From Dysidea avara (taxonomy: Eukaryota; Porifera; Demospongiae; Dictyoceratida; Dysideidae), in NCBI RefSeq assembly GCF_963678975.1, contig NC_089274.1:18927633-18991632 (forward strand): a stretch of 64,000 bases of DNA, read 5' to 3'. A program made the position numbers and the translations under genes. Below are positions 977-64,000 of this stretch, piece by piece (the first letter of the stretch is position 1; the number at the start of each line of letters is the position of its first letter). Below the pieces are notes generated by a model. That model saw only the letters and a program-made list of their open reading frames with translations. It was not told the origin of the DNA and searched no databases.

Positions 977-3900
977 TCAAGCTTCACTTTCTTCACTTTT
1001 CCCTTCAAACTTAACCACATATTCTTGTATTTTATCTGACAATACTCTAGGACGACGTCCTGAAAATCCTGATGTTACCTTCTTCTTAACATCTTGTTTA
1101 AGCTCTTTAATAGCACCCAGCAACTCCTGATCTCTCTTCTTAGCTTCAGCAGATTCTTTAACCAGCTGATCAACTATGGTTTTGATTTGCATCACAGCAT
1201 TTGTGTTAAGCAGAACTTGTGCTTTAACATCATCAATTGGCTCCAGTGCCTAATATGTGATCCATAATAAATTAGGATTTCATCTGGTGGTTCAGTACAA
1301 ACCTCTTTTCCTTGGAGCAAAGTAGTCAACTTTTCTTCAGTATTTAGTTGGTTTACTTCCTTTACTACTTGTCTGTAGGACTTTCTGAATAGTGTAGTAT
1401 AAGCTGATCTGTACCATCTCTGATAGAATGGAACGATGGGATTCTTTTCTATTCTTTGAAAGGGTTTCTTTAGTCTTCTCCTTACCCATGGTAGCTTTTC
1501 CTCAACTTCTAAAGCTAAGCTGACCTGTATATAACACATGTTAGATTTACCATAGGAATTAAAATCAGGTGGTTTATAGTATGTACCTGCAAACTTAAAT
1601 ATGTCAACGTAGCCTTATTCTCCACCTTCTGTGTGTCACCAACAGCAAGACCAATCTATACACACAGATGACATCAAAGTTACAAAACGTTAAACAATGA
1701 TCAAAACCAACCAGTAAGTTGAGGAACAATATTGGCATTAATATCACAAACACTGCCCATAGGATATTGGACAAAAGTGGATAATTTATTGATCCAAGTG
1801 GAGCATCGTTTTGACCATCTCTAAACCGAAACACTTGTTCATACTCCATTTCTCCTGAAGACATGACTAATAATTTCATCAAAGAAAGTGGTGCTGTGTC
1901 AAAAGAAGTTTCGACCTCAGACTAGGAAAGAAAAAATGCTAAACTAAGAGTGAATTATGTATAAAAACTTACTCTGGCAAACAACATGTAAAATGGCAAT
2001 GCAAAAGCAACAATTAAAATTGCTGGCAAATAAATCAACTTCAAAAATGTCCATATAACAGCTTGGAGCATATTAATGGGAATGCCAGTTATGGGTAGTT
2101 TCTTCAAATACATCACTAAATCAATCCATCCTAGGAATACAGCTAAAGCACCAAATTGCCAAGCATAACTCTCTAGACAGAAACACTTTTCTGCATGTCC
2201 AACAACAGCAACTGTGACAGTACTGGCAATTAGTAGTATTTCTAGGTAATTCTCTGCTTCTCCCAAGTAATGCCTTCCTCTGCTAATAAATTCTACTACT
2301 TCAGTCACAGTGCGAACACCACAATAGGCCAACAACAATGTAGCAGCAAATCGTAAAAACACTTGATCACTGTCAGACTCTGTGTATAGTAGTACATGAC
2401 GTATGCACAATATTGAGTAGGTACGTACCTTCATCACACTGTCCCCCTGCATCACAAGTATTTATCCTTGGTATAGGCAACACAACCACAAATGCTGTAA
2501 GAAAACCCAAAAACACTAAGTAGATGGCCAAGTTGACGAAAAACGCAGGCATGGCATATGCCCTCCATTTGTAAGACAGCAACTCATGAGTGACTGGGTG
2601 TTGAAGTAAATTAGTGCGCTCATATCTTACCTACGGCAGAATTTATACAGTACATAATTAAAATGTGGCTAATGGGGTGAATGAGTTTACCATCCAGCGT
2701 AACACATGATTGTTTTTATCAAAACGTTTTAGTGTCCTTGTAGTATTCAACTGTACTGCTTCTGGTAGTGTGTAGAGTCCTAATGTCCCTGTGCCAGGAG
2801 TAGCTCCAAACATTGAATTGTAGAACCCGCGTATGCCACCTCCTGGGGGATCTTCAAAATCATCCAAATATTCAAAATGCATTTTGAAGGCAATGTCTTG
2901 TCCCCTCTCATTCTCTTCCCGTTCGATGCAGTTGTAGAGCACAACTTCAGCAGCATCTATAAGGTGGCATACAATAAACAAAAACCATCAAGTTCAGCCA
3001 TACCAGGTAGATATTTTATAAGCAGTCTCAGTGGTGTTGATCCATACTTATCGCACCCAGTGAGTGCTTCTCGCCAGTGACAACTGTTCACAATTGCTAG
3101 TGCAGCTTGTCTGTATAGAAATATGGACATGCACAAAATGGTCACACTGTTTTATAACAGTTATCAGAAGTGAATGTTAACCTTTCAGACTATTATTATG
3201 CAGTTGCAAATGTGGACAGTGGGTATATTTTGGCAATGTGGACAATGGATATATTTGGTAATTCATATAAATGACCAACATACTTTAAATTCCTTGCATC
3301 AGTTTGCTTATGCCCATATATATATAGCTATATGAAAACAGATACATGAACAAAAGGTTGCTTACAAGTGGCCACGATCAGCTGCTGCTGCTAAACAGTT
3401 ATGTCCATCTTTATTCTGAAGGGTGACATCAATGTGAGGATGTTGCAACAATTGTAGTACACATTTTACGTGTCCATTTTTTGAAGCTAAAAGCAATGGT
3501 GTAGTCTACAATATTTCCCCAAGTAAATCACATACCACCATTAGCTAATAAATTACGTACTTGGACTTTGCCATAACCACCACTAACTGCTACATCTCGT
3601 GACAGCAAGTAATTCATGACCTTTACATGTCCCTGACTAGCAGCACAGGCTAGGGGTGTTCCATCTTCGCATTCACTAAAAATTGTCATGTGGTTGTGTT
3701 ATAAATAAGTTATTAAAACATGTATCCTATAAATTAGGTATGGCAGTACTTAATAGCAAGGATCACGAAAGTTGGCATTTCCCTACCAAATTTTTTTACA
3801 TACTTTTGAATTTTCTATATACTGACTGACTAACTGATGCCTTCAAACAAGCATAGCTCAATAATGGCTCATGCTACACACTTGACTTTTTTAAGTTAAC

Positions 3901-15447: not shown

Positions 15448-18400
15448 TCATAAATGTTCAGTGTTCTTCCTGTCTATATGTGGAAGACTCAGTGCATCAG
15501 TTTGACTAACAATAGACTGTCTACCATTTATGGACATTTTAAGAGCATCATCAATTGACATTCTGCTTGCAGCAAGCGTATCATTATTTCTTGTACTAAA
15601 ATTGTATTCTTTTGTTTCATTGTCATATTGTAGCAACGGAATTTGAGAAATATTTTTTTTAGTTGATTGGATTAAATTTTCCAGAACTTGCATCTTATCC
15701 ATGAACCCCTTCTCTAACTCATCCATCTGCTTCACAACAGTTTCTTTAAGTTCCTTTAATGGATCTTTAGTAGAATTCTACAATAAGCGACAACATAGAA
15801 TGGTAGCTATTTACTCCATGTGTATAGTGGTATATTTCAGTGATTCAACCTGACTTAAATGGCATGGACTTCTTGCCAGCATAGGGCTTTATACTAAATG
15901 CTATCCCAATGGGGACATGTAAGTGACGTAGCGCAGAGAAAACTCTACAACGGATAGCCAAAACCAAAGGGGTAGCTTGATAAATGGCACCAGTATGCTT
16001 ACGTGTGTAGGTGACAGCCTAGCAGATCTAGTAGCAATACAAAAATACTTCCCTATATATACTCACATACCTGCAAAGTGTTGAAAATTGTTTGAAGTTC
16101 TTTGTCATCTTTTAAACTGGAAAGCAATTTTTTTTGCCGGTTGTACCAATTTCTTGTGATAAAAGAATATCTACCACCTGCTGCAAGAGTATAGGTCTTC
16201 ATCTTTTTCTTACAAAACTTCCTTAACACTGGTGCACTATCTTCAACCTCCAACGCCAATTGTACCTGTCAATAATTGTCAGCACTATAGTTATATGATT
16301 TATTTACTATGCATTTCTAGAACCTGGAGACCCAGCCTGATCAACGTAGCTCTTGCTCTTTCAGAAGCTGTGTCTCCTACAGCCAAACCAACCTGTATGC
16401 AGAGAACGAGTAATATAATTTTGTTCATATATTATATAAACTATACCAGTAAGTTGTTGAACAGCACTGGCATCATTATGATAAACACTATCCACAGGAA
16501 GTAAGCCGCTCCAGGGAAGTGTAGAGTTGGCAGTGGTGCTCCATTGTTATTATCAAAATTATCAACAGTATTTAGGAATAATGTGTCAAACTCAAATTCA
16601 CCGGTGGTCATGACCAGAGTTTTCACAAAAGCTCTACCAGGTGTAGAAAATGGTGTTAACTTATCCTGCAACATAATGTGCACTTTAATACCATTTGTTA
16701 ACTACTACACTATGACATACCGGCCTCACTAACAACATGTAAAATGGAAGAGCAAATGATAGAATTAGTAGAGCTGGTATGATGGCTAATGTCGCAAATG
16801 TGTACACAATGTTTAACAAGATATTGATGGGAATTCCAGTAAAGGGTAACCGTTTTAAAAACATCAGCAAGTCTGTCCATGCTAAGAAGAGAGAAATAGC
16901 CCCCACTTGCCACACCCCAGAAGTTGTACAGAAACAGTCACCTCTGTGGTGCCCTAAGCAAAATATAATTGTTAAAACAAACAGTGGAATCTCCACAAGG
17001 TTCTCCAAGTCATGAAAGTATAGGAATTTTCGTCTCCATATTTGCAGCAGTTCAAGCAGCAGTTGAACAATGGAAGACAACAAAATGATGTAGTTTACTA
17101 TATCCAGCGTACGATACTCTTGACTACTCAATCCTGCATGTGTACACACACACACACACACATAGCCATCTGGTTAATAACACGACATCACAACATACCA
17201 TAATCTTCACATTCTTCAACACTCCTTGAGTGTGTATTTATTGGAGCACTTTTACAAGCTGAATAACAACAAAATAACTGATTGATTCTATTATCTGAAG
17301 TTAACTTACTGTTGCAGTCAAAGTGAGTTTGATTAGCATCAACTCCTGTGCATGCATTATAGTCACTCAACAACACTACAAACTAAATACCTATTTCTTC
17401 TTCCATTTCTATTGTAGTATTGAAACTGTATGTATCATTTTCTGCTCCATTGCAAGTAAAATTATTATCACAAACAGTTTTTTCAGTGTTCTCTCCCTGG
17501 CAGAAACGTCCACCAAGCAATGGGGTAGGATTGTTGCACTCTCTAGTGCGAACCCGTGTGAAGACATTGTCATTGCATTTAACTGTACAGCACGACCATT
17601 CACTCCACTGACTCCAGCATCCATCAACTGCAAAGAAGATACTAACCAAGTACAGCATGCAATAACTGTACCTCTGCAAACTGGACCATTAGGTAGAGGT
17701 GTTACAAAAATCAGTGAAGTAAAAAGAGCAAGGAAAATAACATAGAACACAAGATTTAAGAAAAAGGATGGAGCACCAAAAGTCCGCCATTTATGATCTA
17801 GCAGACTACCCACTACTGGGTGTGTTAAGAGCCTTGTTCTCTGGTGTATCACCTGTAATATACACCATAAGTTATGATATCTATTACTCATAACTATATA
17901 GTACCATTAGCATTAAAGGATGATTTTTTATGGTGTAAGAAGCAGGACCCCATGGTTTATTGTCATCATCTTCATAAAATTCTGTATAGAAAACAGGATT
18001 CACAAAGGATGTATCCACTGCTGTTGCTGGCTTGATGAAAACATTAATTAACTTGTCAAAAAAGCTAGGGTTAGGTGGATCCTGAAAGTCATCCAAGTAT
18101 TCAAACAAGTAAGTTATTGCATTGCTCTCATTGTCTCCTTCTTTGTGCTGTTCCTCAATGATACACTGATACAACACTACCTCAGCAACATCTGTGATCA
18201 TATTATAGCAATATGACAGTTATTTAGTAATTATACCTGGCATATACTTGATAAGCAATCTCATTGGTGTTGTCTCATCATGGGTTGTGCAGAACCTCAT
18301 CAACCTTTGCCAGTACCGGCTAGTAACTAATGCCATAACTACTTCCCTTTACAGTAATAACGGTGTAATAGATTTAATAGATAAATGCACTTATATTACT

Positions 18401-20700
18401 TGTGCTTATTAAGGATAGCTTCAATCAAACAGTTGTGGCCATTATCATTGTTAATGGCAACATTCACACCATGATCTAGCAAGACCTTTACCACTTGGAC
18501 ATGCCCATTCTTACAGGCTAACATTAGAGGTGTGCTCTGTCAGAAATATAACTGACAGTGTACAGTCACTTGGGAAGGCACAAACCTGCAGAGTACATTT
18601 GTTACAGCCACCATCAGTGGATACATCTCTGCTCAGCAAATATCTCACAACTTCATGGTGTCCAAAATTTGCAGCGGTTGACAAAGGAGTACCCAACACT
18701 CCATTGCTGTATGTAAGTTATGCCAACATAGGATATATTTACAATCAACTGTATGCCAACTTTGCTTCTGGATCTGCTCTAGTGTTCTCCATTAAGAATT
18801 TCACAATCTTTAGGTGACCTTTCAGACATGCCGTGTGAAGTGGAGTATTACAATTGAAATCTTCAGCTGCTACAAGTGCATTGCTCTGTATCAACCTTTG
18901 GACACAGCTACAAGAAATTATGTCAATCAAACATGAATTAATGCTTCCACTAACTCAATATTTCCATACTCAGTAGCAACATGCAGTGGTGTATATCCAA
19001 ACTTGTTGTATGCACTGGTAAATATTTCACCATAGGAAGTAGGAAGCACAACCTGTATATGGGAATAGTACTATGTTGTGGTTAATATCACCTTACAGAC
19101 AAGCACGTTGCTGTCGGAGATTTAGCAGTGGCATGTACTAAACTATTTTCATGCTCATCAAGCAAAGTTAAATTTATTGAATGGTTTGTGTTGTAAGCAT
19201 CAGTCAGTACCTAAATAAATAAAAAAATCATGATCTGAATACAACGTGACTGGTTGGGTTAACCTCAAGTAATTCGGTGTGTTCATTTTCAATGGCCCAT
19301 TCGAGAACAGTTTTACCATGTCTTGCATGAGTGTAAATTTCACACCCACATTCTACAAACATTCTTATCACTTCCTTGTGTTTAGCAGCTATTGACACCA
19401 TAAAAGGTGTTAAATCACTGCTGTTTCTAGCTTCCATATCAGCTCCTCTGTATATATTTAAATAGTAAAATAAATTCTTAAGTAAAATTACTTGTTTAAC
19501 CTCTCAATAAATAAGAATGCTAGATCTTTGTGACCAATTGCTGCAACAATATGGAGAGGCTGGTCTCTGCTACGGTTCTTGCCGTGCAGCAGGGACTGGT
19601 CTTGGTCAATTATCAGATTACCAATCTCAGGGTCAGTGTGTGCAGTGAACAAATGCAACAGGTTATTGCCTTGGTTATTGCGAGCATGCAAATTAGATTT
19701 CAACAGGAGCAACAATTCCACCACTTCTTTTGAACAATAAGTGGACTGCACGGCCACCATTAATGGGGAATTGCCATCCCCATCACAATCATTGATCAAC
19801 TTTTTGATGTGATAGTGCTCATGACTCAACAACAACCTTAAGATTTCACTATCCCCATACTTGCATGCAGTAAAGATTGGAGTGTGACCACTTCTGTTCT
19901 TCAAGATTACTGAGGCATTACAAGCTAGCAAAATAGGAATTGCTTGCTTAAGATGTTTAGCACAAGCCACATGAAGAGCAGTATCACCATCTTGGTTTGT
20001 CAAATGAATGTTTGTTTGGTTTCTCTCCGCTAGCATTTTGATGAGATCAAGGTGGTTATTCTTGCAGGCTAACATCAGTGCTGAATCCCCAGCAGCATTC
20101 TGAGCATTAACATCAGCACCTGTTGCATAGAATAACACATTGGACACCATGAAAGACTTGTAGGCTTCAGTGGCGTTTACCTTGTTCCAGCAATATTTCA
20201 ATGACTTTCAGGTGCGTAGGATTGCTGAGGAGTTTATGTGAGACAGAAATATCCAGAGGATCAAGGAAGACATTATAGTACATAATAGCAAGGTGTAATG
20301 GAGTATACAGACCGTCATCATCTGTAGTACAGTCACAATCTGACACAAGAAAAAGATTATCATACACAAATGTACATGTGTATGTACCATACCTGCTTTA
20401 CTGTTTAACAACAATTCTACCATCGGTAGGTGCTTGTGCACTACTGAATAGTGAAGCATATTGTAACCAAAACTGTTCTTAGTATCAAGTAAGTGTGATG
20501 GACCATTATCCTCTTCATAATAATACACCCTGGCAATTAGTTCTAAAACCAAGTCCATATCCCCCATGACAGCAGCCTGCGATCCATGCATAAACCAATA
20601 CTACTGGTATAATACTATTTACTACTACCTTAGTGCCATCTACAATTATGGCATTACTCAAAACCTGAAAGAAGTAGTCTTTGTGAAAATGAGCTGCCAT
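15448..20700 (-). CDS. TRPA-like ankyrin-repeat channel with a TSP1 domain in the S1-S2 loop, gene 2
   Basis: Twenty-one exons: 20700-20629, 20576-20393, 20339-20181, 20119-19492, 19447-19264, 19210-19097, 19052-18955, 18907-18761, 18706-18586, 18536-18400, 18346-18237, 18191-17905, 17852-17672, 17627-17391, 17345-17310, 17258-17199, 17133-16721, 16665-16447, 16392-16324, 16265-16071, 15777-15448. All junctions are in phase and give 1326 residues. Ankyrin repeats cover about 25-640. S1 lies near 771-798, a TSP1 module near 808-865, S2-S5 about 928-1055, a pore loop with TTGEFEF near 1075-1085, S6 1108-1134 ending NLLVGLAVGDT, and a coiled coil after 1218. Three N-glycosylation sequons (NFT, NDT, NTT) after the TSP1 core fit an extracellular location. 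The 18907-18761 exon uses a donor inside CAAAGTTGG, chosen because the longer frame meets a stop; that junction is the weakest. Confidence 0.9.
17199..17258 (-). other. two-cysteine mini-exon before S2 of gene 2
   Basis: A 60-bp phase 1-1 exon encoding a C-x14-C segment directly before the S2 exon. Gene 3 has a 57-bp counterpart at 24691-24747 with exactly 14 residues between its two cysteines. Gene 1 has none. Probably a disulfide-closed stalk between the inserted domains and the membrane; this is inference. Confidence 0.7.
17391..17627 (-). other. TSP1-domain exon of gene 2 (phase 1-1)
   Basis: This 237-bp exon encodes the motif GCWSQWSEWSCC, then VRTRECNNPTP and FCQGENTEKTVC, the tryptophan ladder and cysteine order of a thrombospondin type 1 repeat. 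It starts and ends in phase 1, so it can be gained or lost without shifting the frame. It is followed by a 36-bp exon and a 60-bp exon, also phase 1-1. The intron to the 36-bp exon would be 45 bp long. Confidence 0.88.
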
Positions 20701-20909
20701 CTCTTACTAGGTTTAGCTTAGCAACAAAACTAATCTTTTCACACTTTATAAATGTAAACATTATAGGTGTTAATATAAATAATTATCACTTGTACAAACT
20801 ACCAAAAATATACATGCTAGCTGCTATTTCACACAGAGAGGTTTCAATACATAGTCAGCCATATATACTATACAGCAACAGCTAATTATTCTACATTCTT
20901 ATATAAAGG
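20701..20909. other. short intergenic gap between gene 2 and gene 3
   Basis: Only 209 bp separate the gene 2 start codon from the gene 3 stop codon. This must hold the gene 3 3' end and the gene 2 promoter. I see no clear TATA box or poly(A) hexamer that I would assign. Confidence 0.6.

Positions 20910-64000
<43,091 letters not shown>

Follow-up and report, generated by a model that had tools for sequence, protein, structure and literature searches.

Can a TRPA-type channel carry TSP1 and Ig modules in its first extracellular loop? The question is raised by a 64,000-nucleotide window of the sponge Dysidea avara (G000:C3:18927633-18991632, in a genome of 550.8 Mb and 108 contigs), in which an initial annotation distinguished three TRPA genes with the same channel core and with a loop after S1 that holds nothing, a TSP1 exon, or a TSP1 plus an Ig exon. 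Splice models were made by reading the minus strand exon by exon across the window. Genes A, B, and C (genes 1, 2, and 3 of the initial annotation) are all on the minus strand; gene B was modelled over its whole coding part, and genes C and A over the transmembrane part only. The exon tables confirm the shared core and the three states of the loop, with the following features.

1712..1921, minus strand: gene A, pore exon (exon table)
1973..2379, minus strand: gene A, S2-S5 exon, starting in phase 1, with nothing between S1 and S2 (exon table)
2429..2630, minus strand: gene A, S1 exon, ending in phase 1 (exon table)
2691..2956, minus strand: gene A, pre-S1 exon (exon table)
15448..20700, minus strand: gene B, TRPA-like channel with TSP1 in the S1-S2 loop (exon table; Pfam Ank_2, Ion_trans, and TSP_1 above cut-off)
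16447..16665, minus strand: gene B, pore-S6 exon (exon table, PDB match)
16721..17133, minus strand: gene B, S2-S5 exon of 413 bp, starting in phase 1 (exon table, PDB match)
17199..17258, minus strand: gene B, spacer exon of 60 bp with two Cys, phase 1-1 (exon table)
17310..17345, minus strand: gene B, spacer exon of 36 bp, phase 1-1 (exon table)
17391..17627, minus strand: gene B, TSP1 exon of 237 bp, phase 1-1 (Pfam, exon table, profile comparison)
17672..17852, minus strand: gene B, S1 exon of 181 bp, ending in phase 1 (exon table)
17905..18191, minus strand: gene B, pre-S1 exon of 287 bp (exon table)
18237..20700, minus strand: gene B, 11 ankyrin-repeat exons (exon table, Pfam)
22242..22310, minus strand: gene C, post-S6 exon (exon table)
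22502..22705, minus strand: gene C, pore exon (exon table)
24222..24637, minus strand: gene C, S2-S5 exon of 416 bp, starting in phase 1 (exon table)
24691..24747, minus strand: gene C, spacer exon of 57 bp with two Cys, phase 1-1 (exon table, paralogs)
30566..30847, minus strand: gene C, Ig exon of 282 bp, phase 1-1 (Pfam, exon table, donor common to two paralogs)
33109..33282, minus strand: gene C, TSP1 exon of 174 bp, phase 1-1 (Pfam, exon table)
33921..34101, minus strand: gene C, S1 exon of 181 bp, ending in phase 1 (exon table)
50556..50932, minus strand: gene C, pre-S1 exon of 377 bp (exon table)

Every splice site listed in the exon tables of the three genes has an AG acceptor or a GT donor. 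As first described, the S1 exon ends and the S2-S5 exon starts in phase 1 in all three genes, a point on which the splice and phase tables agree. Gene B has an open frame of 1314 aa in 21 coding exons, with 20 introns that are all GT-AG, the start codon being a guess. In gene A, the intron between the S1 and S2-S5 exons is 49 bp and joins them in phase 1, so the loop has no room for a module. The sizes first given for the inserted exons hold for gene B (237, 36, and 60 bp) and for two exons of gene C (174 and 57 bp), all of phase 1-1; the Ig exon was given as 315 bp and is instead 282 bp, because the donor that yields the shorter exon, A|GTGAGT, is kept in both paralogous Ig exons. The range first assigned to the finding, 15448..64000, contains gene B, but the transmembrane exons of gene A are outside it, at 1712-2956.

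The S1 exon of gene C is near its TSP1 exon and is parted from the pre-S1 exon by a 16 kb intron with transposon frames. Gene C probably extends beyond the end of the window, with a same-strand ankyrin exon within the next 10 kb. In the 16 kb intron, retroelement-like open frames are present on the plus strand at 34433-38567, one of which matches a tyrosine recombinase (PF00589, 27.8 bits, cut-off 27.1); the frames give the impression of being DIRS-like. Also on the plus strand of this intron, an element at 46063-48163 with a DDE_1 transposase frame at 47030-48163 (PF03184, E 1.7e-24) is probably a DNA transposon. Simple repeats at 31701-32054 and 55830-56150 have open frames on both strands (CLPA/GRQA-type) that do not look like genes. 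An Rfam search over the window gave zero matches.

The channel core is of the TRPA type. With the insert removed, the transmembrane region of gene B is closest in the PDB to TRPA1 of the fly (3.9e-31) and human (8e-28), followed by TRPV2 (2e-9). Pfam finds N-terminal ankyrin repeats (Ank_2, E 1.5e-75, nine stretches) and a six-segment core (Ion_trans, E 3.3e-12, 46.6 bits, cut-off 25), and the single predicted protein has Ank_2, Ion_trans, and TSP_1 together above their cut-offs. Hydropathy locates S1, S2, S3, S5, and S6, with S4 below the threshold used. Because TRPA1 structures match best and the Pfam domains exceed their cut-offs, gene B is by sequence a TRPA-type channel, as was initially proposed. 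It has in common with human and fly TRPA1 the ankyrin repeats, the six-segment core, and the position of the S1-S2 linker. Unlike genes B and C, the human chain shows no large insert where it aligns over S1-S2; the fly alignment stops between the two segments, and the fly loop may therefore be longer. Neither TSP1 nor Ig is known to occur in TRPA1.

Large extracytosolic parts between S1 and S2 are likewise present in TRPML and TRPP, but these have the core of another TRP group, and the loop modules here are TSP1 and Ig. In gene B, Pfam at E 0.01 does not find the S1-S2 domain that is proper to Group II TRPs (TRPML/TRPP), and neither channel is among the 36 PDB matches of its transmembrane region at E 0.01. 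A long S1-S2 loop is called unique to Group II TRPs in a review (PMC7312350), so the TSP1 and Ig loop modules would have been gained independently in a Group I channel.

The identity of the modules, as first read from the letters, was borne out by profile searches. Both TSP1 exons exceed the TSP_1 cut-off of 21.6 bits (gene B, E 5.7e-7 and 30.1 bits; gene C, E 5.8e-8 and 33.3 bits), and the Ig exon of gene C exceeds that of PF00047 (E 4.1e-5, 24.3 bits, cut-off 21.8), with matches to PF13927 and PF07679 below their cut-offs. The placement of the modules in the S1-S2 loop as symmetrical 1-1 exons of extracellular-type sequence is also supported. The inserts are 111 aa with four sequons in gene B and 171 aa with eight in gene C, each with 11 Cys. 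By comparison, the 735 aa before S1 of gene B have eight sequons; sequon density is nevertheless weak evidence of topology because the C-terminal cytosolic part of gene B holds five in 197 aa.

The same arrangement recurs elsewhere in the genome. A whole-genome search with the S2-S5 exon of gene B (E up to 0.01) gave at least 49 matches and one with an S1 exon gave 63 (E up to 1), 52 of which entered pairing. The 11 S1 matches left out by eye (nine on C8 in frames of 872-919 aa, C2:49704108, and C4:13807151) all have E >0.04; C6:6305928 (E 0.084) was kept because it is beside an S2-S5 exon. Each of the 49 S2-S5 exons was paired with a separate S1 exon on the same strand less than 60 kb away (121 bp to 45 kb), leaving 3 of 52 S1 matches unpaired; the longest pairings may be wrong. 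Of the 49 S1-S2 gaps, ten are shorter than 400 bp, seven contain TSP1, three contain an exon of a third kind, and the remaining 29 leave more room. Three of the seven TSP1 genes also have Ig, in the same order and on the same strand. Among these 29 gaps, that of C13:5585 was read by eye throughout and has a small exon only, and that of C3:27939 was listed for open frames. Genome searches found no TSP1 match in the other 42 gaps, a negative that is not strong because the Pfam TSP_1 scan (135 matches, with 150 of 234 candidates scored) caught only three of the seven known ones, those of gene B, gene C, and the C11 gene.

TSP1 matches are concentrated in these gaps, which total 319 kb of 551 Mb. 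The TSP1 query has 29 genome matches, seven of which, including the query itself, are in S1-S2 gaps on the coding strand (6 of 28 nonself matches; binomial 2e-16, with matches in tandem arrays not being independent). The two best of 101 nonself matches of the Ig query are also in S1-S2 gaps (4e-4 from the count alone), in TRPA genes C3:19104 and C3:19014 (43% identity; 2.4e-11 and 2.6e-11; the next match is at 0.001). No relatives were confirmed in prokaryote genomes and viral contigs.

Across paralogs, the modules keep their structural residues. All seven TSP1 exons (two by script, five by eye) and all three Ig exons are of phase 1-1. Taken singly, four of the seven TSP1 exons exceed the TSP_1 cut-off (genes B and C, the C11 gene, and C3:19108), and three are below 21.6 (C3:19165, 18.6 bits; C3:19181, 19.1; C3:19021, 15.7). 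Their alignment has 17 invariant columns, among them three Trp, three Arg, and six Cys in all seven; with these 17 residues shared, the exons look like one old module rather than repeated captures. A joint profile of the seven matches properdin (7e-31), thrombospondin-1 (8e-24), and UNC5 (2e-14), with which the modules have the TSP1 profile, the Trp/Arg pattern, and the six Cys in common. Those are secreted or single-pass proteins, whereas here a single TSR is within a channel loop. The O-fucosylation motif C-x(2-3)-S/T-C-x-x-G, by eye on the alignment, is in none of the seven exons; as it is present in many but not all TSRs, we did not take it as defining. The Ig core (C, W, and Y-x-C) is invariant across the three paralogous Ig exons, and a two-Cys spacer exon precedes S2 in six of the seven TSP1 genes, the corresponding stretch of the C11 gene being outside the comparison. 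Gene structure, phases, domain identity, recurrence among paralogs, and a conserved TSR core are all present in the genome sequence itself.

The third kind of exon is confined to C6. The TRPA gene at C6:6395781 has an exon of ∼74 residues between S1 and S2 (C6:6397104-6397325). It is rich in sequons, and short hydrophobic turns recur along it; the sequence gives the impression of a beta-solenoid-like fold. A genome search at E up to 1 returned exactly three matches including itself, all in the S1-S2 gaps of three C6 TRPA genes. Pfam gave this exon nothing above cut-off (best E 0.026).

A tree of S2-S5 exons (∼130 aa of one exon, from 34 of the 49 genes plus human and fly TRPA1) orders these states. 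The seven TSP1 genes and C3:19223 form a clade with moderate support (85/89), within which the three TSP1+Ig genes form a clade (98/96), and the three C6 genes group together (100/100). Gene A groups with four C5 genes, C2:9580, and C3:18897 (99/98), and all seven have gaps <400 bp. A clade of the seven TSP1 genes that excludes C3:19223 was rejected by an AU test (p 0.0065). Read most simply, the tree would imply that TSP1 was gained once, with Ig gained once at a later point and TSP1 lost from one gene, and that the C6 clade acquired its exon separately. The loss, in C3:19223, is not firm: that gene sits on a long branch (1.2), and a false join is a risk flagged by the program. Two other histories were rejected: repeated independent capture of TSP1, given the common core of the TSP1 exons and their single clade, and loss of TSP1 in gene A, as all seven members of its clade have short S1-S2 gaps. 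The initial annotation had described domain shuffling among the three genes. The insertion of symmetrical modules stands, but stepwise gain describes the history better.

A large diversification of TRPA channels is likewise described in the demosponge Ephydatia muelleri (PMC7385117), where the term "thrombospondin" has a count of zero in the main text, and another study reports TRPA expression in the sponge Halichondria panicea (PMC9798719). Searches of the open-access literature turned up no account of a TRPA channel with TSP1 or Ig modules in a loop.

What might such a loop do? We propose that a TRPA-type subfamily gained one phase-1-1 TSP1 exon in the S1-S2 intron and that one branch then gained an Ig exon, placed between the TSP1 exon and the conserved two-Cys spacer. 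The predicted product would have intracellular ankyrin repeats and, mounted on each subunit's first extracellular loop, a Cys-rich and sequon-rich ectodomain of ∼111 residues (gene B) or 171 residues (gene C). If expressed, folded in this context, and furnished with disulphides and glycans as predicted, the ectodomain would bind a partner outside the cell, be it a glycan, a soluble ligand, the matrix, or a neighbouring cell. Glycans or proteins are the usual partners of TSRs and Ig domains. Binding would then shift the voltage-sensor-like domain via the short S1-S2 linker and hence channel opening. A study of human TRPA1 describes coupling of the S1-S2 linker to gating and reports that protoxin-I acts through this linker (PMC5281607); an ectodomain in the loop would be well placed to bias opening. 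We favor, with somewhat better than even confidence, a Group I TRP subfamily with an independently gained S1-S2 ectodomain through which extracellular contacts bias gating. The initial suggestion of an adhesive or ligand-binding ectodomain that links contact to cation flux is plausible in this light.

If the predictions hold at the level of expression, these genes would give Group I TRP channels that come with their own extracellular binding domain, on the linker that influences gating in human TRPA1. In a sponge, which has no neurons, matrix or cell contact could thereby gain a concrete molecular path to cation entry. The plain, TSP1, TSP1+Ig, and third-exon versions in one family would constitute a natural test of the control of a TRP gate by a loop ectodomain. 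More tentatively, the S1-S2 loop may be an open dock, with TSP1, TSP1+Ig, and the third exon each gained in its own branch. The family would then consist of receptor channels gated by ligand or contact, whose recognition surface evolves fast, and would represent a third TRP route to a loop ectodomain besides those of TRPML and TRPP.

Rates of change bear on whether the ectodomain senses anything. We estimated dN/dS (NG86, 1000 bootstraps) between paralogs of this genome for the core (S1 and S2-S5 exons) and for the TSP1 and Ig modules taken as one. Within the TSP1+Ig clade, the three pairs have genes in common and give a dN/dS of 0.56-0.95 for modules versus 0.21-0.28 for the core, an approximately threefold difference. 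Bootstrap intervals for core and modules overlap in none of the pairs (0.19-0.41 and 0.57-1.60; 0.13-0.34 and 0.36-0.86; 0.13-0.33 and 0.39-1.02). In two of these pairs, the interval for TSP1 by itself does overlap that of the core. The modules of pair 19104/19014 have a dN/dS of 0.95 (CI 0.57-1.60), and because this value is near 1, dN/dS alone does not show constraint on them. In the alignment, this pair keeps 17 of the 19 TSR columns at which the other five genes are fixed, versus 11 of 41 other columns (Fisher 5.6e-6). The pattern points to a TSR scaffold that is kept while its surface may be changing fast in one branch, through relaxed constraint or positive selection.

Such a pattern suits a recognition surface better than a glycosylated cap or assembly module, one that senses nothing and serves folding, tetramer formation, or surface delivery. 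This alternative is a serious one, if doubtful. The TSP1-only pair, 19162/19178, has a dN/dS of 0.35 for TSP1 and 0.35 for the core, as for a structural part, and the inserts are rich in sequons. In human TRPA1, mutation of two predicted linker sequons lowered expression and reportedly influenced insertion into the plasma membrane; the authors consider these sites most likely unglycosylated (PMC5281607). In the same TSP1-only pair, the TSP1, S1, and spacer exons are islands of DNA similarity among mostly unalignable S1-S2 introns, a contrast that is only suggestive because similarity elsewhere in these genes runs through introns.

Alternatively, the modules may be spliced as cassettes, with a plain-loop TRPA as the main product and the ectodomain present only in a minor or tissue-specific form. 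The phases permit it: all modelled inserts in genes B and C are 1-1, so the frame survives skipping of any or all of them, and gene A and C3:19223 carry the channel core without TSP1. We regard this as unlikely, given that seven TSP1 and three Ig exons keep their splice sites, frame, and structural residues.

A further reading is of rapidly diversifying receptors for microbes, food, or self/nonself, fused to a channel. In its favor are the fast modules and slow cores of all three TSP1+Ig pairs and the partial homogenization of the Ig exon between two paralogs. The Ig exons of C3:19104 and C3:19014 have a dS of 0.10 versus 0.64 for their S2-S5 exons, with differences mostly in the first part of the exon, and were likely exchanged or gene converted recently. 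But the comparison is of paralogs of one genome in three pairs that share genes, dN/dS is not confidently >1, the TSP1 interval by itself overlaps that of the core in two of them, and the TSP1-only pair has no acceleration. We rate a diversifying receptor as quite unlikely.

That the TSP1 and Ig exons are outside the channel genes, whether as decayed exons, a nested gene, or open frames arisen by chance, is very improbable: order, strand, and phase are alike in seven paralogs, the two best nonself matches of the Ig query are at the matching place of two TRPA genes, and the fixed TSR columns are conserved in 19104/19014, grounds on which chance frames and a nested gene were rejected.

The survey also yielded observations on other loci. 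Dense arrays of TSP1 matches at C8:17251869-17270009 are a possible source of the TSP1 modules. The nine C8 matches left out of the S1 pairing, all weak, span C8:7258364-7448492, and their open frames (872-919 aa) are perhaps another channel family with few introns. The TRPA S2-S5 exons at C13:6058034 and C13:6086254 have identical protein sequences and may be recent duplicates or an assembly artefact. At C3:27939750-27940136, a TRPA S2-S5 exon has an in-frame TGA and is perhaps part of a pseudogene.
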